DNA of 15,306 nucleotides from Acidobacteriota bacterium (lineage in GTDB: Bacteria; Acidobacteriota; Holophagae; Thermotomaculales; Thermotomaculaceae), in NCBI GenBank assembly GCA_027067895.1, contig JAMOUY010000035.1, positions 1-15,306 of the forward strand, written 5' to 3'. The notes under the pieces were generated by a model that was not told the origin of the DNA, searched no databases, and worked only from the letters and a program-made list of their open reading frames with translations. The translations under genes were made by a program, and so were the position numbers. Numbering within the stretch: the stretch's first letter is position 1; each line of letters opens with the position of its first letter. Positions 3 to 11,818 of this stretch are shown here, one piece after another.

Positions 3-1634
3 ATTTCAAGGAAAGAAGGGGAAATTTATACTTTGGGCCCTTTAATTCACAACAATCAGGTTGTTTCCCTTCTTGAAACAAAGGGTGTAAAGGCTGAAAA
101 AAAAGTTGAGAATTTGAATAAAGGCACGGTTGTAATCAGGGCGCACGGCACAACGCCGGATATTCTTGAAAATTTGAAAGAAAAAGGCCTTGACGTTATA
201 AACCTTACCTGCCCGAAGGTTGGCAAGGTGCAGGGAATTATAAAAGGCCACGTGAAAAAAGGATACAAGGTTGTAATTGTAGGAGACGAAGGGCATGCGG
301 AAGTTATAAGTTTGAAAGGGTATTCGGGAAACACGGCCTTTGTTGTGGGAAGCGTTGAGGATGCCGAAAAACTTCCCAAGATGGAAAAAGTTATAGTTGT
401 TTCACAGACAACTTTCAGTTTTGACGAGTTTTTTGCAATTGTTGAAAAGGTTAAGGAAAAGGCAAAAGAGGTTAAAGAATTCTGCACAATATGCGATTCA
501 ACACACAGAAGGCAGGACGAGGTTAAAAAAATCGCTTCCGAAGTGGACTGTATGATAATAATCGGCGGAAAACACAGTGCAAACACAACGAGGCTTGCCG
601 AGATTTCCCGTAAGTTTTGCCCCGTTGTTTATCATATTGAAACGGAAGAAGAGTTAAAAGGTATTGATTTTTCCAAGTTTGAAAAGGTAGGGGTTTCGGC
701 AGGTGCTTCAACGCCGAATTGGATTATAAATTCCGTTGTGGATTATCTGAGGTTTGTTGACGAAAAGTCAAAGCCTCTCGCCAAGGCTTTGGGAATTATT
801 TTCAATTCCGGGCTTTTCAGAGGTATTTCGGCTTTTGTTTTTTCTTATGGGCTTTTAAAATTATACGGAGTAAAATCACCTTTGGAATTTTCCCTTATAG
901 CGTTTTTGTATATTTTTTCCATGACTTTGTTTAACGGATTGGTCAATCTTGAAGGGTTGAAATTCAGTAATCCGACAAAGTATTATTTCTTGAAAGAAAA
1001 CAAAAAACCTCTTGTTTTTGCAGGTTTATTATCACTCTTTTTTCTGTGTTATTTAAGTGTTTCGCTTTCATTCGGAGTTTTTGCAGTTGTTCTTTTGGCA
1101 TCTTTGCTCGGGCTTTTTTACAGAATTAAACTTAGGTTTAAAGGCGGAATTAAACGTCTTTTTGATATTCCCGGGTCAAAAAATGTTTTTTATGCCCTTG
1201 CTTGGTCAATCGTTATTAGTTTTATTCCTTTGTTTTTTACCGGGAAAGCGGGTTTTTGTTCTCTAATTCCCATGTTTTCTTTTGTCTTTACAGTTGTTTT
1301 TGCAGGCTCAATACTTTCCGACATAAAGGATATTCAGGGGGACAAGTTTTACGGAAGGGAAACGTTGCCTATTTTAATCGGAATAGAAAAGTCGGTAAAA
1401 ATAGCGGATAGGTTGGTTTTTCTTCTCATTGTTTCCCTTGTGATTTTTTCTTTTGTTTTTAAAACAAGTTTTCTTTTGTCCCTTCTTGCCGTGCTGTTTG
1501 GCGCTTACTATTGGATTATAAAGAGGTTTGTTATAAAGAAAAGAAACCTTTCCCCGATTTACTACGAGTTTCTTCTTGACAACTTCGCCCTTATTCCCGG
1601 GTTGTTTGCAATTCTTTTTTCCTTTTTGAAATAA
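3..1634 (+). CDS. ispH: IspH (HMBPP reductase) fused to a UbiA-family membrane prenyltransferase domain, 5' partial
   Basis: The reading frame is already open at base 3, so the gene begins before the window. About 30-35 residues are probably missing, including the first Fe-S cysteine. The TTG at base 33 is an internal Leu. Numbering from that Leu, residues 1-245 are IspH, which reduces HMBPP to IPP/DMAPP at the end of the MEP pathway. Visible signatures are GPLIHN (His6), RAHGT (His38), TCPKVGKV (Cys60), GHAEV (His88, Glu90), SQTTFS, ICDSTHRRQ (Cys154), GKHSANTTRL and SAGAST. From about 250 to 533 the protein is a multi-span membrane domain of the UbiA superfamily. It contains IPGSKNVFYALAW and a good second Asp motif, DIKDIQGDKFYGRETLP (430-446). 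The first motif, normally NDxxDxxxD, reads NGLVNLEGL (301-309) and lacks its aspartates. There is no stop or frameshift between the domains. The gene ends 3 bases before the convergent trmH-like gene. The IspH call is near certain. The UbiA fold is confident, but its substrate and activity are unknown. Confidence 0.93.
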   Translation: MSRKEGEIYTLGPLIHNNQVVSLLETKGVKAEKKVENLNKGTVVIRAHGTTPDILENLKEKGLDVINLTCPKVGKVQGIIKGHVKKGYKVVIVGDEGHAEVISLKGYSGNTAFVVGSVEDAEKLPKMEKVIVVSQTTFSFDEFFAIVEKVKEKAKEVKEFCTICDSTHRRQDEVKKIASEVDCMIIIGGKHSANTTRLAEISRKFCPVVYHIETEEELKGIDFSKFEKVGVSAGASTPNWIINSVVDYLRFVDEKSKPLAKALGIIFNSGLFRGISAFVFSYGLLKLYGVKSPLEFSLIAFLYIFSMTLFNGLVNLEGLKFSNPTKYYFLKENKKPLVFAGLLSLFFLCYLSVSLSFGVFAVVLLASLLGLFYRIKLRFKGGIKRLFDIPGSKNVFYALAWSIVISFIPLFFTGKAGFCSLIPMFSFVFTVVFAGSILSDIKDIQGDKFYGRETLPILIGIEKSVKIADRLVFLLIVSLVIFSFVFKTSFLLSLLAVLFGAYYWIIKRFVIKKRNLSPIYYEFLLDNFALIPGLFAILFSFLK

Positions 1635-2585: not shown

Positions 2586-3905
2586 TTATGCCTTTAATAC
2601 TTCGGCAAGAATGTTTATGCCTTCGTCAATTATTTCTTTGGTTATTGTCAAAGCGGGTCTGAATCTGATTGATTTTTCCCCTGATTTCAAAACGGCAAGC
2701 CCTTTTTCAAAGCATTTGTTGAATACTTCGTTTCTTACTTCCGGAGTTTCAAGTTCAACTGCGGCAAAAAGTCCTTTTCCTCTAATGTTGGAAAGTTTTA
2801 CCTTTGAAACTTCCTGTAACTCATATAGTTTATCAAGCAGGTAATCGCCCATTTTTGCGGCGTTTTCAACAAGGTTTTCCTCGTGTATAATTTCAAGCAC
2901 TTTTTGTGCCCTAACCATGTCAACAATGTTTGCGCCCCATGTTGAGTTGATTCTTGAAGAAACCTTGAAAACTGAGTCAACTTCGTTTACCTTATCCGAT
3001 GACATAATTCCGCAAACCTGCATTTTCTTTCCGAAAGAAACTATATCGGGGGTAAATCCGAAATGTTCAAAGCACCACATTTTTCCTGTTGCGGCGACGC
3101 CTGTCTGCACTTCGTCAACAATGTAGAGAATATCGTTTTCTTCTGTGATTTCTCTCAACTTTCTCAAAAATTCAGGCCTAAAATGGTTGTCTCCGCCTTC
3201 GCCCTGAATAGGCTCAATAATAAGGCAGGCAATATCGTCTTTGTTTTCGTTTATCGCTTTGTAGATTTCGTCAATAGCCTTGTTTTCAAGTTCAATTACC
3301 TTTTTGAGATTTTCTTCGTTTAGAGGGAATTCAATCTTGGGATTTGTGATTCTCGGCCAGTCAAATTTCGGGAAGTATTTTACTTTTGTCGGGTCTGTGT
3401 TTGTAAGGCTCATTGTGTATCCCGTTCTTCCGTGAAAAGCCTCTTTGAAATGAATTACAAGGTGTCCCTTTTCCTCTTTGTATCCCTTTGCGAAATTCTT
3501 TCTTACCTTCCAGTCAAATGCGGTTTTTAAAGCGTTTTCAACCGCAAGCGCTCCGCCGTCAATAAAAAAGTAGTTGGGCAATTCCGGGTGAGCGCCTAAC
3601 TTTGCGAATGTTTCAACAAATTCCGCCATAAATGTGGTGTAAATATCCGAATTTGCAACTTTATGGATTGAAGCGATTTTAAGCCTTTCCAAAAATTCAG
3701 GGTCTTTCATTTTAGGATGGTTGAAACCTAACGGCAGAGAAGCGAAGAAAGCGTAGAAGTCAATATACTTCTTTCCGTCTCTTGCGTCAACCATGTAGCA
3801 GTTTTCGCTTTTTTCAAGGTCAAGGACAATGTGGAAACCGTCAACAAGCATGTGTTTTTTCAAGGTATCAAGCACATCGTTAGGCTTTACTTTTATTGAT
3901 TCCAT
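2586..3905 (-). CDS. lat: L-lysine 6-aminotransferase (lysine epsilon-aminotransferase), class-III PLP enzyme
   Basis: This 439-residue class-III (ornithine/GABA type) aminotransferase closely resembles the LAT family (Rv3290c type). It moves the epsilon-amino group of L-lysine to 2-oxoglutarate, giving 2-aminoadipate-6-semialdehyde, which cyclises to piperideine-6-carboxylate, plus glutamate. Visible features are FIDGGALAVENALKTAF (about 114-130), the FHGRTGY turn, the Asp-Glu of YIVDEVQTGVAATGK (Asp264) that contacts the PLP ring, and the PLP-lysine segment SFGKKMQVCG (Lys293/Lys294). SSRINSTWGANIVDMVRA is a stretch typical of LAT and not of general ornithine aminotransferases. Length matches the family. 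The ATG has AAGGAG (3912-3917) 6 bases upstream. Its own promoter lies at 3937-3964. No piperideine-6-carboxylate/aminoadipate-semialdehyde dehydrogenase or saccharopine pathway gene lies nearby, so the pathway context is incomplete here. Confidence 0.93.
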   Translation of the reverse strand: MESIKVKPNDVLDTLKKHMLVDGFHIVLDLEKSENCYMVDARDGKKYIDFYAFFASLPLGFNHPKMKDPEFLERLKIASIHKVANSDIYTTFMAEFVETFAKLGAHPELPNYFFIDGGALAVENALKTAFDWKVRKNFAKGYKEEKGHLVIHFKEAFHGRTGYTMSLTNTDPTKVKYFPKFDWPRITNPKIEFPLNEENLKKVIELENKAIDEIYKAINENKDDIACLIIEPIQGEGGDNHFRPEFLRKLREITEENDILYIVDEVQTGVAATGKMWCFEHFGFTPDIVSFGKKMQVCGIMSSDKVNEVDSVFKVSSRINSTWGANIVDMVRAQKVLEIIHEENLVENAAKMGDYLLDKLYELQEVSKVKLSNIRGKGLFAAVELETPEVRNEVFNKCFEKGLAVLKSGEKSIRFRPALTITKEIIDEGINILAEVLKA

Positions 3906-5089: not shown

Positions 5090-7003
5090 ATGGGAAAAAT
5101 AATTGGAATTGACCTTGGAACTACAAACTCCGTTGTTGCGGTAATGGAAGGAAACGACGTAACCGTTATTCCTAATCAGGAAGGTTCAAGAACAACTCCT
5201 TCCGTTGTTGCGTTTACCAAAAACGGAGAAATTCTTGTCGGACAGGTTGCCAAAAGGCAGGCAATAACAAATCCTGAAAATACAATCTTTTCCATAAAGA
5301 GATTTATGGGAAGAAGGTATGACGAGGTAACCGAAGAAATGAAAATGGTGCCTTACAAGGTTGTAAAGGCTCCGAACGGAGACGTTAGGGTTGAGATTAA
5401 CGGAAAACTCTATTCTCCGCCTGAAATTTCGGCAAAAATTTTGCAGAAATTGAAAAAAGCGGCGGAAGATTATTTGGGAGAAAAAGTTACCGAAGCGGTA
5501 ATTACCGTGCCTGCATACTTTAACGATGCTCAAAGGCAGGCTACGAAAGATGCCGGAAAGATTGCCGGACTTGAAGTAAAAAGAATTATCAACGAGCCGA
5601 CAGCCGCTGCTTTGGCTTACGGCCTTGACAAAAAGAAAGACGAAACCATTGCTGTTTACGACTTTGGTGGCGGAACTTTTGATATTTCCATTCTTGAAGT
5701 GGGTGACGGAGTTGTTGAAGTTAAGTCAACAAACGGAGATACCCATTTGGGCGGAGACAACATTGACCAGAGAATTATTGACTGGCTTGTTGAAGAGTTT
5801 AAGAAAGACCAAGGCATTGATTTGAGCAAGGACAAAATGGCGTTGCAGAGGCTTAAAGAAGCGGCTGAAAAGGCAAAAATTGAATTGTCTTCCATGATGG
5901 AAACCGAAATCAATCTGCCTTTTATCACCGCTGACGCATCAGGCCCGAAACACTTGAATATCAAACTTACAAGGGCAAAACTTGAATCAATGATTGAAGA
6001 CTTGATTGAAAGAACAATGGAGCCTTGCAAAAAGGCGCTTGAAGATGCAGGACTTACCGCGTCCGATATAGACGAAGTCGTTCTTGTGGGCGGTTCAACA
6101 AGGATTCCGCTTGTTCAGAAAAAGGTTACCGAATTTTTCGGCAAAGAGCCTCATAAAGGCGTTAACCCTGACGAGGTTGTTGCTATCGGTGCCGCTATTC
6201 AGGGCGGAGTTTTGGCAGGAGACGTAAAAGACGTTCTTCTTCTTGACGTAACCCCGCTTTCTTTGGGTGTTGAAACTCAGGGCGGAGTTATGACTGTTAT
6301 GATTCCGAGAAACACTACAATACCTACCAAGAAAACGGAGGTATTCACAACTGCGACTGATAACCAGACAAGCGTTGAAATTCACGTATTGCAGGGTGAA
6401 AGGCCTCTTGCGAAAGACAACAAGTCTCTCGGTAGGTTTCACCTTATGGGAATTCCGCCTGCACCGAGGGGAGTTCCTCAGATTGAGGTTACCTTTGATA
6501 TTGACGCAAACGGAATTTTAAACGTTAGCGCAAGAGACAGGGCAACAGGAAAAGAGCAGAAAATTACAATAACCGGTTCAAGCGGATTGTCCAAGGAAGA
6601 AATAGACAGAATGGTGAAAGAAGCGGAAGCACATGCGGAAGAGGATAAAAAGAGGGCTCAGTTGATTGAAGCGAGAAACAGGGGAGATTCTTTAATCTAT
6701 CAGATTGAGAAACTTCTCAAAGACCATGCGGACAAGATTACCGAGGCTGACAAGCAGGCTATTGAATCTGCAATATCTCAGTTGAAAACCGCTATGGAAG
6801 GTGAGGATGTAAACGCAATCAACTCTGCGATTGAAAACCTTACCAATGTTTCTCACAAACTCTCTCAGTATCTCTATCAGGGTCAGGACGGAGCGGGTCA
6901 GGCCGGTACGGGTCAGGCATCCGCATCCGGTGATGCTCAGGCTCAAACTTCTTCTGATAACAATGACGGAGACGATGTTGTTGATGCGGAAATCGTTGAA
7001 TAA
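5090..7003 (+). CDS. dnaK: Molecular chaperone DnaK (Hsp70)
   Basis: This is a complete 637-residue Hsp70, the normal bacterial length. It is the ATP-driven cytosolic chaperone that binds unfolded segments, working with DnaJ and GrpE. The N-terminal ATPase domain shows the phosphate-1 loop GIDLGTTNS (6-14), [34 protein letters not shown], the phosphate-2 motif [10 protein letters not shown] and the adenosine motif [11 protein letters not shown]. The conserved linker [16 protein letters not shown] then leads into the substrate-binding beta domain and a helical lid. The tail is Gly/Gln/Ala-rich and ends [12 protein letters not shown], the acidic end typical of bacterial DnaK. AGGAGG (5079-5084) lies 5 bases before the ATG. 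It is the first gene of the operon with dnaJ, hspR and a sigma factor. grpE, often found between or next to these genes, is absent from the window. Confidence 0.99.
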
Positions 7004-7026
7004 GGGGGAAGTCGGAGGACTGAGCC

Positions 7027-8130
7027 ATGAATAAAAAAGATTATTACGCCGTATTGGGGCTCCCTAAGGGGGCCTCAATACAGGACGTAAAAAAGGCATA
7101 TAAAAAATTGGCAAGAAAGTATCACCCGGATTTAAATCCGGGTGACAAACAGGCTGAGGAAAAGTTTAAAGAGATTTCCGAAGCCTATGCCGTACTTTCT
7201 GACCCGAAGAAAAAGGAACAGTATGACAAATACGGCTTTGTGGGAGACGGAAACTTCGGAGAAAACTTTAACTATCAGGATTTTCAGAATGTAAATGTTG
7301 ATTTTTCCGAAATTTTTTCAGATTTATTCGGAAACAGGGGAAAAACTCATTCTTACGGAGAGAATTTTTATGCTAATGCGCCTAAAAAAGGCGAGGATAT
7401 CCAGTATTCAATGAGAATTTCCTTTATGGATGCCGTTCACGGTTTAACAACAAAAATAAGGGTAAACAGAAGCAAGCCGTGCGATGCATGCGGCGGCACG
7501 GGAAAAATTCCTCTTTCATCGCCTCAGGTTTGTCCGAGGTGTAAAGGAACGGGAAGGGAGTCAAGCGGACTGCCTTTCTTCCATGTGGAAAAACCGTGTT
7601 CATTATGTGGCGGAAGCGGTAAGATAACCTTTACCAAGTGTTCCAAATGCAAAGGCACGGGAAGGATTCCGTTTACCGAAACCATTAAAGTGAGAATTCC
7701 AGCAGGTGTTGACAACGGTTCAAAAGTAAGGGTGCCGGGGAAAGGCGAAGCGGGAATTAACGGAGGCCCTCCGGGGGATTTATACATTGTAACTGTGGTT
7801 GAAGAGCATCCTATTTTTAAAAGACAAGGAGACAATATTTACATGAAACTCCCGATAACCTTTTCCGAAGCGGCGTTAGGCGCAAAGATAACAATACCGA
7901 CTATTTACGGTCCGACAACCGTTAAAATACCGCCTCAAACCCAATGCGGACAAAAAATAAGGGTGAGAGGCAAAGGAATAAAATCAAGACGCACGGGGCA
8001 AAACGGCGATATGTATCTTGAAATTGAGGTAAAAACTCCGTCTATTGTGGATACAAGGGTAAGGGAATTGATGAAAGAATTGGAAAAATACGAAGACAAA
8101 GAAGCAATCAGAGGGCATTTAAAGGTATAA
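7027..8130 (+). CDS. dnaJ: Chaperone protein DnaJ (type I Hsp40)
   Basis: This is a 367-residue Hsp40 co-chaperone that stimulates the DnaK ATPase and delivers substrates. The J domain occupies residues 1-70, with the essential HPD at 33-35 ([10 protein letters not shown]). The following linker (about 70-115) is Asn- and Phe-rich with motifs [10 protein letters not shown], and is poorer in Gly than a classical G/F region. Four CxxCxGxG zinc-binding repeats are intact: [24 protein letters not shown] and CSKCKGTG (about 150-210). Two C-terminal substrate-binding beta domains follow, with the usual [21 protein letters not shown] and GDMYLEIEV segments. The ATG has GGAGGA (7014-7019) 7 bases upstream. 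It lies 23 bases after dnaK with no terminator between them, so co-transcription is expected. Confidence 0.98.
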
Positions 8131-8142
8131 AGGGGGTGGCTT

Positions 8143-8550
8143 ATGGCGAAAGACAAAAATAACGAACCTTATTACATGATTAGCGTGGTGGCTAAAATGT
8201 ACAATGTCCACCCTCAAACCCTCAGGCTTTACGAAAAACACGGTTTGCTTACTCCTTCAAGAACTGAGGGCAATACAAGGCTTTATTCCAAAAAAGACCT
8301 TGAAAGGCTTGAAATAATACTGAACCTTGCGAGGGATTTGGGGGTAAATCTTGCGGGAATTGAAATAATTCTCAACATGCGTGAAAAAATGGAACAGATG
8401 CAGAAAGAAATCAATCAGTTAACCCTTGCGTTGCAGAAAATTATTCTTGAACACGTTAAAAACGGAGAAGAAAAAATCAAAAATGCACTTGTAAAAATTC
8501 CTCGTTCGGGTATAGTTAAACTTGACATAGAAATGGATGAGAAAGAGTAG
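8143..8550 (+). CDS. hspR: HspR-type MerR-family heat-shock repressor
   Basis: This 135-residue protein has an N-terminal MerR winged helix-turn-helix (about 11-75): YMISVVAKMYNVHPQTLRLY, then EKHGLLTPSRTEGNTRLYS. The segment LARDLGVNLAGIEIIL is the hallmark of HspR within the MerR family. A coiled-coil dimer helix follows (about 78-110, REKMEQMQKEINQLTLALQK). The tail, ending IPRSGIVKLDIEMDEKE, has no cysteine-based effector site, as expected for HspR, which is not a metal sensor. HspR represses dnaK operons by binding HAIR elements and in actinobacteria uses DnaK as co-repressor. The candidate HAIR at 5025-5045 fits autoregulation. The gene starts 12 bases after dnaJ, with a GGGGGTGG ribosome-binding site. 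The family is confident. Co-repression by DnaK here is inference. Confidence 0.93.
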   Translation: MAKDKNNEPYYMISVVAKMYNVHPQTLRLYEKHGLLTPSRTEGNTRLYSKKDLERLEIILNLARDLGVNLAGIEIILNMREKMEQMQKEINQLTLALQKIILEHVKNGEEKIKNALVKIPRSGIVKLDIEMDEKE

Positions 8551-8555
8551 GGTGT

Positions 8556-9410
8556 ATGGCAAAAAAGTTTAAATATTTTGAGGAAGAAGAGGGTTTAAAG
8601 CAATATTTGAAACAAATAAATGAAATTCCTCCTATCACTCCGGAAGAAGAAAAAGAACTTGCAAAGAGAATAAAAGAGGGGGACGAAGAGGCTTTAAAAA
8701 AACTTGTTGAGGCAAATCTTAAATTTGTCGTCTCTGTTGCTAAAAAATACAGGGGCAGAGGCGTGCCTTTTATGGATTTGATTAACGAGGGCAATCTTGG
8801 CTTAATAGAGGCGGCAAAAAGGTTTGACCCCGACAAAAATGTGAAGTTTATAACCTATGCCGTTTGGTGGATTAAACAGGCGATACTTTCTGCCATTGCG
8901 GGACAAAGCGGTATTTTTAAAATATCGTACAAAACCTTTAATCTGCTAAACAATATAACCAAAAAATTTAACGAATTGCAAAAAGAGTTGCACAGAGACC
9001 CTACTTCAAAAGAACTTGCAAAAGCAATGGAGTTGGACGAGTTAGAGTTGAACTCTCTTTTAACCACTTATGGAGAACACAAATCGCTTGATGATTATAT
9101 TTCTTCCGATACGGACGATTTAAACTATGAGGACGTAATTGAGCAGGAAAGTGTTGATGATGCGGAAACGGAATTGATAAAAAAATCTTTTGTTGAGCAT
9201 TTGATGCAGTCGTTGTCTGTCTTGAACAACAGGGAAAGAGAAGTTCTTGTTCACAGATTCGGGCTTGACGGAGAAAAGCCTAAAACTTTGCAGGAAATAG
9301 GCAAACTTCTCGGATTGTCAAGGGAAAGGGTAAGACAGATTGAAAAGGCTGCGCTTGAAAAAATCAGAAGGTCAAGGTTTAAAAATATCCTTAAAAGTTA
9401 CTTAAATTAA
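8556..9410 (+). CDS. RpoD/SigA-like sigma-70 factor (alternative, operon with hspR)
   Basis: This 284-residue sigma-70 factor has regions 1.2 to 4.2 but lacks region 1.1 and the non-conserved insert of the primary sigma. Region 1.2 is about 11-40 (LKQYLKQINEIPPITPEEE). Region 2 is about 46-115 (VEANLKFVVSVAKKYRGRG, DLINEGNLGLIEAAKRFDP, FITYAVWWIKQAI). Region 3 is about 120-195 and region 4 about 215-272 (LNNREREVLVHRFGLDGE, TLQEIGKLLGLSRERVRQIE). The stretch after region 2.4 reads GQSGIFKISYKTFNLLNN, where primary sigmas have a segment like RTIRIPVHM, so promoter preference may differ. It has no RpoH box, so I do not call it RpoH. It begins 5 bases after hspR with a weak AGGGTG site and is probably translationally coupled. 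A stress-response role is inferred from the operon. Its stop overlaps the convergent permease gene. Confidence 0.9.
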   Translation: MAKKFKYFEEEEGLKQYLKQINEIPPITPEEEKELAKRIKEGDEEALKKLVEANLKFVVSVAKKYRGRGVPFMDLINEGNLGLIEAAKRFDPDKNVKFITYAVWWIKQAILSAIAGQSGIFKISYKTFNLLNNITKKFNELQKELHRDPTSKELAKAMELDELELNSLLTTYGEHKSLDDYISSDTDDLNYEDVIEQESVDDAETELIKKSFVEHLMQSLSVLNNREREVLVHRFGLDGEKPKTLQEIGKLLGLSRERVRQIEKAALEKIRRSRFKNILKSYLN

Positions 9411-10201
9411 TCAGCCTTTTTGAAAAAAGCGGAAACAAAATAAACTATTGCCCCCAAAGAAACTATTGTTGCGCCTGTGGGAAGGTCCAGTTTGTAACTG
9501 AGATAAAATCCCGCAAAAAAGATTAAAAGATTTAGAACAATAGCCCAGAAAATTACTTTTTTGTAATTGTCAAAAAAAAGCATGGTAATTGCGGAAGGGA
9601 TAATCAAAAAAGCCGAAACCAAGATTATTCCTATCAATTTAATGCTGAAAACAATCACGAGGGAAAGTATCAAAACAATTGTGTTTTCAAACAACTCAAC
9701 AGGAAGCCCGGATGCCTTTGCAACCGTTTTGTCAAAGGTTATGAATAAAATTTCTTTGAAAAACAGGTAAAACAAAATGATAATCACACTCATTAAAACA
9801 CCGAGGGCAACTATATCTGTTTTTGTAATTCCAAGTATACTTCCGAAAAGGTATGACATTATGTCAAAAGTGTAGTCCTGTTTAAGCGAAATAAAAATAA
9901 CGCCCAAAGCCATTGTAAAGGCAAAAAGTATGCCTATTACGGTGTCGTATTCGGATTTTTCACCGTAAAGAGAAATTAAATAGCCCACGACTATGCAGAA
10001 GAAAATTGCGGTTGTATAGGGGTTTGTGCCTAAAAGTATTCCGAGCGCAACTCCGCCGAATGCTGCGTGGGAAATTCCCACAGTTAGAAAAGAAAGCCTT
10101 TTCATTACCACAAAAAAAGAAAGAAAGCCGAAAAGAATGCTTATAATTGTGCCTGCAAGCAGCGCATTTTTTACAAATTCGTATTGAAGCAAATCAATCA
10201 T
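9407..10201 (-). CDS. Zinc/manganese-type ABC transporter permease (ZnuB/MntB family)
   Basis: This 264-residue integral membrane permease of the ABC-3 (cluster 9 metal) family has about eight hydrophobic segments and forms the channel of the importer. Recognisable are the conserved early segment SFFVVMKRLSFLTVGISHAAFGGVALG, with the His-Ala of SHAAFGG, and the later GIILVSAFLIIPSAITML, both typical of ZnuB/TroC-type proteins. The start is the ATG at 10201, preceded by a G-run (10205-10210). A frame open 63 bases further upstream would run through the ATPase gene and is rejected. The start overlaps the ATPase stop by 8 bases, so translational coupling is likely. It is the last gene of the binding protein-ATPase-permease operon. 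Zn versus Mn cannot be decided from this protein. Confidence 0.93.
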   Translation of the reverse strand: MIDLLQYEFVKNALLAGTIISILFGFLSFFVVMKRLSFLTVGISHAAFGGVALGILLGTNPYTTAIFFCIVVGYLISLYGEKSEYDTVIGILFAFTMALGVIFISLKQDYTFDIMSYLFGSILGITKTDIVALGVLMSVIIILFYLFFKEILFITFDKTVAKASGLPVELFENTIVLILSLVIVFSIKLIGIILVSAFLIIPSAITMLFFDNYKKVIFWAIVLNLLIFFAGFYLSYKLDLPTGATIVSLGAIVYFVSAFFKKAD

Positions 10202-10973
10202 CTTCCCCCCTTTGGCACCCCTTGCAGTGTTGGTCGTGAACAAGAATTTGAATGTTTGTACCAAAAACCTTTTTTAAAACGTCTTCCGGGATAGGGTTAC
10301 CGCTTTTTCCGTGGTAATGGATTGTTTTGTTAAGGCATGCGATTTTGTCAACAAATGTTGAAACAACGCCTATATCGTGGGAAACCATAAGTATTGCCAT
10401 ATTTTTTGTGTCCCTTATGTTTACAAGGGTTTTGTAAAAATCTTCCTGAGCAACAATGTCAAGCCCTGTTGAAGGCTCGTCAAGGATAAGAATTTTTGGT
10501 TCCATTGCGAGTGCCCTTGCTATAAAAACCCTCTGTCTCTGTCCGCCGGAAAGTTTATTTATGTTTTCGTCTTTCAGATGTTCCATTTTTACTATTTTCA
10601 GGCATTCTAAAACAATTTCCCTGTCTTTCTCGGACGGTTTTTTAAAAAAGCCGAGTTTCGGATATCTTCCCATCATAACGGTTTCAAAAACGGAAATAGG
10701 GAAGTTTTTCGCGGTTTGTTCTTTTTGGGGAAGATATCCTATCTGTTTTTTGTCAACCTCTTTCGGCGGTTTTCCGAGGATTTCAACTTTTCCTTTTGTG
10801 TAATCCTTTAAGCCGAGTATCACTTTCAAAAGCGTTGTTTTTCCCCCGCCGTTGGGTCCGACTATTGACACTATTTCCCTTTTGTTAACTTCCAGAAAGA
10901 TATTTTCAAGAACAACTTTGTTTTTGTATCTTACTTCAAGGTCTTCAATAAGAATGTATGGCTTTTCCTTCAT
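10194..10973 (-). CDS. Zinc/manganese-type ABC transporter ATP-binding protein (ZnuC family)
   Basis: This 259-residue cytoplasmic ATPase powers the metal importer. It has Walker A GPNGGGKT (39-46), Q-loop Gln83 in YLPQKEQ, the ABC signature LSGGQRQRV (141-149), Walker B ILILDE (161-166), D-loop STGLD and switch His199 (VSHD). The order is complete, so the protein should hydrolyse ATP. The C-terminal tail carries several possible metal ligands: IHYHG (His219, His221) and HDQHCKGC (His246, His249, Cys250, Cys253). A His-rich tail is common in this family, but the Cys pair is less usual. The ATG overlaps the stop of the binding-protein gene in an ATGA arrangement, and the 3' end overlaps the permease start. 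Confidence 0.95.
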   Translation of the reverse strand: MKEKPYILIEDLEVRYKNKVVLENIFLEVNKREIVSIVGPNGGGKTTLLKVILGLKDYTKGKVEILGKPPKEVDKKQIGYLPQKEQTAKNFPISVFETVMMGRYPKLGFFKKPSEKDREIVLECLKIVKMEHLKDENINKLSGGQRQRVFIARALAMEPKILILDEPSTGLDIVAQEDFYKTLVNIRDTKNMAILMVSHDIGVVSTFVDKIACLNKTIHYHGKSGNPIPEDVLKKVFGTNIQILVHDQHCKGCQRGEDD

Positions 10974-11785
10974 CTGCTTAGTGCCTGATAAATCCTTTCA
11001 CAGTTAAAAATCATAAGGTTAAGATAGGTGTTTCTATCCTTGCTATTCGGGTCTCCGATAGGGTCGAGTTCAACCACTTTAAGGTTTAATTCTCTTTTGT
11101 AAATATCAATAATTTTGTCTTTTGTACCTATTCTGCAAAGCAAAGCGTCTGCTCCGAATTTTTTTCCTCTTTCAAGTATTTCCGTAAGTTGTTGAATTTT
11201 AACTCTCTTACTCTCTCCGGTATAAATTACACCTATGGTTTTCAGTTTTAAATCAATTGCAAGGTATTCCCAAGCCGGATGGTATTGAATTATGTTTTTT
11301 GAATTTAATTTTGAAAATTTATCAAGGTAAACCTTGTAAACTTCGTTAATTTCCCTTGCGTATTCCCTTGCGTTTTTTTCGTAAAAGTGAAGATTCTTTT
11401 TGTCAAGTTTTACAAAAATTCGTTTTGTTGTCGTAATAATGCTGTAAGATTTTCTGAAAGAAAGCCAGATATGTGGATTGGCAGGCCTTTTCAAAATATA
11501 GTAAACCTTTGCGTCTTTTTTCAGAAACTTTTCCATCCATCCGTCAAACTGCTTTGAAATTCCGATAAAAATATCGGCGTCCGCTATCATTTTTGCCTGT
11601 TTGGGGGTTGGCTCGAATGTATGGGGATTTGCATTGACGGGGATTGCAAATTTAACCTCCGCTTTATCCTTTACAATATTGGAAACAATGTCTGCAACGG
11701 GGAATATTGAGGTAATAACCTTTGTTTTTGCAAAACCCCCCGTTGTCATTAAAGCGATTAAGAAACACATTAAAATCCTTTTCAT
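10970..11785 (-). CDS. Metal-binding substrate-binding protein of a Zn/Mn ABC importer (ZnuA/TroA family)
   Basis: This 271-residue exported cluster A-I (cluster 9) binding protein captures the metal ion for the permease. It has a signal peptide with a short basic start and hydrophobic core (MKRILMCFLIALM), probably cleaved after GGFA (Ala19). No lipobox is present, so it should be periplasmic, consistent with a Gram-negative cell. The expected ligands are visible: His55 (NPHTFEP), His105 (NPHIWLS), His169 (QYHPAWEYL) and Asp241 (ELDPIGD). The loop between the first two ligands is short and lacks the His-rich insert of many ZnuA proteins, so Zn or Mn are both possible. The start is the ATG at 11785 with GGAGGG 4 bases upstream. 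A TTG ten codons further upstream would include that ribosome-binding site and is rejected. It is the first gene of the importer operon. Confidence 0.93.
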   Translation of the reverse strand: MKRILMCFLIALMTTGGFAKTKVITSIFPVADIVSNIVKDKAEVKFAIPVNANPHTFEPTPKQAKMIADADIFIGISKQFDGWMEKFLKKDAKVYYILKRPANPHIWLSFRKSYSIITTTKRIFVKLDKKNLHFYEKNAREYAREINEVYKVYLDKFSKLNSKNIIQYHPAWEYLAIDLKLKTIGVIYTGESKRVKIQQLTEILERGKKFGADALLCRIGTKDKIIDIYKRELNLKVVELDPIGDPNSKDRNTYLNLMIFNCERIYQALSR

Positions 11786-11789
11786 TTTT

Positions 11790-11795
11790 CCCTCC
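11790..11795 (-). promoter_or_regulatory. Ribosome binding site that fixes the ZnuA-like start
   Basis: GGAGGG on the minus strand lies 4 bases before the ATG at 11785. It supports this start over the upstream TTG at 11815. Confidence 0.8.
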
Positions 11796-11818
11796 GAAAA
11801 CTTTATTTTTCTCAAATC

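Follow-up and report, generated by a model that had tools for sequence, protein, structure and literature searches.

The 15,306 bp contig JAMOUY010000035.1, from the draft genome of an Acidobacteriota bacterium (GenBank assembly GCA_027067895.1) and referred to here in its whole length as the window, starts with a gene in which an IspH is followed, with almost no linker, by a UbiA-type membrane domain. The gene is a single open frame of 543 codons (3–1634, forward strand) with its first codon at the contig edge. Residues 1–24, cut off by this edge, were supplied by the homologue P0001, which is 100% identical to the window protein and gives a full-length protein of 567 residues. Residue numbers are those of P0001, so that the window begins at residue 25; other genomes, loci and families are referred to by G, L and f numbers, and listed homologous proteins by P numbers. 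The gene belongs to a kind of IspH-UbiA fusion known since 2015, found here in an Acidobacteriota genome from the Thermotomaculum side, and its membrane domain carries a non-canonical first metal-binding motif.

Fusions of IspH to UbiA are named in the title of a paper by Rao, O'Dowd, Li, Wang and Oldfield (Chem Sci 2015; PMC4746011), which reports 47 such sequences from sulfate-reducing bacteria. The UbiA part was classed there as PT_UbiA_5, of unknown function and with two DXXXD repeats, and the genomes with the fusion were stated to carry a separate UbiA/MenA as well. The role proposed was membrane localisation with high local isopentenyl diphosphate (IPP) and dimethylallyl diphosphate (DMAPP), IspH feeding the UbiA half. 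Three of the proteins were expressed, which gave truncated product and inclusion bodies and none intact (PMC4746011). Within the open-access literature, no later work on IspH-UbiA was found apart from one citing paper, PMC12605070, in its reference list. The novelty that an earlier note, made from the window's sequence, had implied for the fusion was therefore not borne out, the 2015 description ruling out a new discovery. Its remark that no IspH-UbiA protein had been characterised did hold within that literature, in which intact expression had failed.

The earlier note had also proposed a search for co-occurrence of the two domains across genomes. The homologue search returned 828 matches, and both Pfam domains were present in all 120 of those listed, in agreement with the one-frame fusion, IspH first, that the note had described. 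Sixty of the 61 relatives match the fusion protein: the nine f1 genomes do so over nearly the full length (47–100% identity), the match spans both halves in most f2 genomes, and in the seven f3 genomes it lies in IspH alone. As the gene is at a contig edge and the genome is a draft in 415 contigs, the fusion could be suspected to be an artefact of assembly or gene calling. However, this is ruled out by the homologues carrying both domains, including P0003, the fusion of Thermotomaculum hydrothermale (Acidobacteriota, Holophagae in NCBI), on a contig of 2,317,141 bases, and the full-length f1 matches speak against it too; we regard its probability as negligible.

The UbiA half, searched against 297 genomes sampled from the phylum, matched 68 at E 0.001 or better. 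Reading the list, we split these into 36 strong matches (E <1e-30, with long frames; f1, f2, f9, f20 and f27), the distant G257 and 31 weak ones. Searching with a profile of the UbiA half, for which the 8000 best candidates were scored, gave 38 proteins, 27 of them with IspH residues at their start. The remaining 11 begin within the UbiA domain, on contigs of 904–3066 bases, and 7 of these are named IspH at source. No close stand-alone relative of the fused UbiA domain was found within these searches, the 11 proteins on short contigs being not judgeable. The G257 match (L068, G257:C119) appears to stand alone, is distantly related to the fused domain (E 5.6e-16) and had no NCBIfam match at 1e-5.

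An IspH tree was built by a quick method from 44 rows, three of them with long branches and with the unfused f3 loci L109–L115 left out. In it, 7 of the 8 unfused rows cluster, L006 stands among the fused rows, and there are two label changes. L006 (5902–7630), from Blastocatellia, is an IspH that lacks the UbiA domain and whose stop overlaps with the start of a gene for the squalene synthase HpnC (307.6 bits, cut-off 250.45). Judging from its place in the tree, it has possibly lost a fused UbiA domain.

The IspH hallmarks noticed earlier in the first half were confirmed by its scores on PF02401 (LYTB; 272.8 bits, cut-off 24.5) and TIGR00216 (IspH; 254.8 bits, cut-off 187.85) and by its conserved residues. 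The top NCBIfam match was PRK00087 (IspH-RPS1) with 295 bits, below its cut-off of 624. Fusions were aligned in 165 rows, the 120 listed proteins (P rows) plus 45 genome rows, of which 158 are distinct, 7 genome rows duplicating a P row at 98.5% identity or more; 45 of the 46 named genome loci were used (L030 was left out). Thirteen IspH positions were checked in this alignment, which we take to be the cluster cysteines (C12, C94 and C188) and active-site residues. Ten are invariant, among them C94, C188, H40, H72, H122, E124, T161, S216 and S260, kept in all 165 fusions. T160 and N218 each differ in a single row (164/165), and C12 is Cys in P0001 and in all 148 aligned rows that reach it. The IspH half thus looks, from these residues, like a fully active, ordinary 4Fe-4S reductase of 4-hydroxy-3-methylbut-2-enyl diphosphate. 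Since it is the only IspH match in the window's genome, it very probably makes the IPP and DMAPP of the cell. IspG was not found in this draft genome, and as it is present in 7 of the 9 genomes of the family its lack is taken as draft incompleteness.

The second half, which had been called UbiA-like with a second UbiA Asp motif, proved to be so: it matches PF01040 with 46.2 bits (cut-off 34.2), has the UbiA helical fold, and keeps motif 3 (D-x2-D-x3-D) intact as D464, D467 and D471. It opens with an amphipathic-looking helix (282–292), followed by long membrane-type helices. Motif 1, canonically N-x3-D-x3-D, is in the window N335, N339 and L343; the Asn is kept, the middle Asp is replaced by Asn and the third residue is non-acidic, so that the canonical form is absent. 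In MjDGGGPS, a digeranylgeranylglyceryl phosphate synthase, motif 1 is N62, D66 and D70 and motif 3 is D180, D183 and D187; replacing any of the five Asp residues by Ala strongly impairs the enzyme, and the changes N62A and Y125A impair it too (PMC9385802). By alignment, these six motif residues correspond to 335, 339, 343, 464, 467 and 471 of the fusion. For motif 3 this is supported by the HMMER alignment with 6m31, and a profile comparison, though weak (hhalign E 0.002, probability 13.6), places both motifs opposite those of canonical UbiA.

The change in motif 1 is not peculiar to the window. Among the 165 fusions, residue 335 is N in 133 and residue 339 is D in 126, and the last motif-1 Asp, residue 343, is D in none and E in 4. 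In motif 3, Asp stands at 464 in 135 rows (with Glu in 21 others), at 467 in 149 and at 471 in 163. None of the 165 combines N, D, D, Y, D, D and D. As a control, we examined the loci of the best PF01040 matches in the same relatives, and all 30 had a motif of the N-x3-D-x3-D type; these being top-scoring matches, canonical motifs are favoured and weaker paralogues lie outside the control. A further control count of 31/31, from 31 of 34 named loci, is set aside as circular, its rows having been chosen for the motif. The loss of Asp at 343 is family-wide and independent of Asn339 in the window. Several lineages have lost further catalytic residues and all of them retain the fusion: in the Holophaga-like f2 rows, T, S or A mostly stands in place of the motif-1 Asn and E, N or S in place of D464; D471 is replaced by N in G081 and G093; residues 464 and 467 of G310 are E and S; and D467 is also lost in G066 and G040b. 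In two Holophaga-like genomes the fusion is present twice, the second copy being diverged and about 515 residues long (L069, G040:C73, and L070, G044:C1), and the UbiA halves of these copies, G040b and G044b, have lost further catalytic residues.

Since the canonical motif 1 is found in 0/165 fusions and the window is without two of its three residues, prenyl transfer by the UbiA half is an assumption. The reading we prefer, to which we would give an even chance, is that the UbiA half has a non-classical role, which might lie in binding, docking or sensing, or in an altered reaction.

This domain is under purifying selection and is not decaying. For 115 pairs of fusions with at least 85% identity, the ratio of non-synonymous to synonymous substitution rates (dN/dS) was 0.022–0.324 in the UbiA half (median 0.175) and 0.018–0.205 in the IspH half (median 0.082). 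Near-invariant UbiA positions fall largely within the pocket loops, which make up 81 of the 282 positions of this half: 20/25 in f2, 27/35 on the f1 side and 14/18 in the other P rows, an enrichment that is indicative, the loop boundaries having been drawn after the alignment was inspected. Y397, P414, S416 and K417 are kept in at least 95% of the 165 fusions, and W425 in all 120 P rows.

The UbiA half could also be a bare membrane anchor for IspH, that is, a worn-out enzyme without a ligand. The erosion of catalytic residues in several lineages would suit such an anchor, as would the place of the unfused L006 among the fused IspHs and the faster change of the UbiA half, its dN/dS exceeding that of IspH in 113 of the 115 pairs. 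Compared with the MqnP-like UbiA of the same genomes, the fused domain diverged 1.83 times as much in the window's genus (6 pairs), again in favour of an anchor, and 1.17 times as much in f2 (153 pairs, from 18 of the 21 named f2 genomes). However, the near-invariant positions cluster in the pocket loops even in the f2 rows, where most of motif 1 is gone; an anchor would have no need for Y397, S416, K417, D471 or P480, and the full nine-helix domain is retained where a single helix would suffice. We consider a bare anchor improbable.

Rao et al. (2015) and the earlier note read the UbiA half as an active prenyltransferase of unknown acceptor that is fed by IspH, at which a single Asp together with the Asn would suffice for motif 1. 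Several points weigh against a non-classical role. All but the last motif-1 Asp are kept in 90 of the 165 fusions, among them those from 4 of the 5 genomes in the window's genus. Asp stands at 339 in the same fraction of that genus (4/5), the window's Asn339 codon is one base away from Asp, and the replacement may be either private to the window or due to faulty sequencing. Some rows have acidic residues 6, 11 or 12 places past the motif-1 Asn, and these could serve as a substitute. MenA and UBIAD1-type enzymes space motif 1 differently, and a strict N-x3-D-x3-D test may therefore be too narrow. The higher dN/dS of the UbiA half indicates weaker constraint than on IspH, the pocket loops were delimited with the alignment in view, and conservation of these loops would be expected of a working enzyme no less than of a binding site.

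On the other hand, the last motif-1 Asp is missing from all 165 fusions, and the same change strongly impairs MjDGGGPS in the mutant data of PMC9385802. The lineages that drop further catalytic residues retain the fusion nonetheless, and no shared gene neighbour, nor any that names an acceptor, was seen by eye in the flanks of L003, L004 and L005. The quinone step, moreover, is already served by an enzyme of its own. The window's genome has a second UbiA (G000:C91, L035), stand-alone and with canonical motifs, that matched with 206.9 bits. Its score on TIGR01475 is 325 bits (cut-off 180.8), and on the MqnP models it reaches about 300 bits, below their cut-offs. It adjoins a UbiX-family gene and a fragment best matching MqnE. 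This layout is that of the futalosine route to menaquinone, and the gene is assigned as MqnP by our own judgement of these matches. That the fused UbiA would be the quinone prenyltransferase of the genome is made unlikely by this second, canonical enzyme with its UbiX- and MqnE-like neighbours. As to the relatives, two PF01040 matches are present in the one-contig G003, and in the draft G002 only the fused one. Classical prenyl transfer by the window copy is possible on its sequence, and an active prenyltransferase is a serious contender that we hold to be somewhat short of an even chance.

For the non-classical role, we propose the following arrangement. The last IspH helix would run almost directly into the first helix of the UbiA-fold membrane domain, and in the modelled protein IspH would be held beside the mouth of the UbiA pocket, at the cytoplasmic face if the side is that of UbiA structures. 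The fused pocket appears to be maintained by selection with its metal site rebuilt, motif 3 being intact and motif 1, in the window, being without two of three residues. Such a pocket would most likely still bind diphosphate or a prenyl diphosphate, without classical two-metal prenyl transfer. Perhaps the UbiA half couples IspH to the isoprenoid status of the membrane by docking or sensing; alternatively, it may run a one-metal or otherwise changed reaction. Membrane tethering, ligand binding and loss of the classical reaction are what we infer; the fusion itself, the folds, the residue patterns, the selection and the separate UbiA are established.

A bolder proposal can be made for the whole subfamily, which is found, as far as our searches reached, solely as a partner of IspH and has lost a catalytic Asp family-wide, and further residues in single lineages, with its pocket conserved. 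It may nowhere be a classical prenyltransferase and instead be a module repurposed to bind prenyl diphosphate, one that docks IspH to the membrane and couples the last step of the methylerythritol phosphate (MEP) pathway to membrane isoprenoid status. We think this rather unlikely. If true, docking of IspH at the membrane, or its feedback control, would add a new mode of regulation to the essential MEP pathway.

With the fusion already published in 2015, the window contributes a further lineage and not a concept. What is added here is that every fusion examined has a non-canonical first Asp motif beside near-invariant IspH residues. This weakens the standing idea that prenyl units are made and used within one molecule, and sharpens the question on the UbiA half to whether a prenyl diphosphate is bound or transferred.

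The features of the fusion and the other genes noted in the window are listed below.

Coordinates of the fusion gene's features and of neighbouring genes in the window
Feature	Position	Strand	Remark
IspH (LytB) domain, residues 25–279 of the full-length protein	3–767	+	Residues 1–24, including C12, lie beyond the contig edge
Second cluster Cys codon, C94	210–212	+	C in 165/165 aligned fusions
Third cluster Cys codon, C188	492–494	+	C in 165/165 aligned fusions
UbiA-type membrane domain, residues 282–567	774–1631	+	
UbiA motif 1 place, N335 to N339	933–947	+	From sequence; reference N62, D66, D70 of MjDGGGPS
Pocket loop Y397 to W425, with DIPGSKN (412–418)	1119–1205	+	
UbiA motif 3, D464-I-K-D467-I-Q-G-D471	1320–1343	+	HMMER alignment with DFEDMEGD of DGGGPS 6m31
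Fusion stop codon	1632–1634	+	
RNA-methyltransferase-like gene	end at 1638	-	Convergent with the fusion
L-lysine 6-transaminase	2586–3905	-	TIGR03251, 644.8 bits (cut-off 520.8)
dnaK, dnaJ and HspR repressor in a row	5090–9410		HspR 113.4 bits (cut-off 105)
Sigma-70-type factor	directly after the dnaK-dnaJ-HspR row		By eye
Three genes resembling a metal ATP-binding cassette importer (permease, ATPase, binding protein)	9407–11815	-	By eye

Among known systems, the fusions of Rao et al. (PMC4746011) are the nearest: they share with the window gene the domain order, the lengths, the single frame and a separate UbiA/MenA in the genome. They come from sulfate-reducing bacteria, whereas the window fusion is from Acidobacteriota on the Thermotomaculum side, and they have two DXXXD motifs, whereas the window has only D467-x3-D471, its motif 1 being N-x3-N-x3-L. 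The IspH-RPS1 fusions (PMC4746011; PRK00087) likewise have an N-terminal IspH and a C-terminal partner, but this partner consists of ribosomal protein S1 repeats and not of a membrane domain. MjDGGGPS (6M31/7BPU) is about 14–15% identical to the fused UbiA over the fold, and its motif 1 of N62, D66 and D70 stands against N, N and L in the window. Finally, the MqnP-like G000:C91 belongs to the same UbiA superfamily and the same genome as the fused domain; unlike the latter, it is stand-alone with canonical motifs, and the two align weakly (hhalign E 0.002, probability 13.6).
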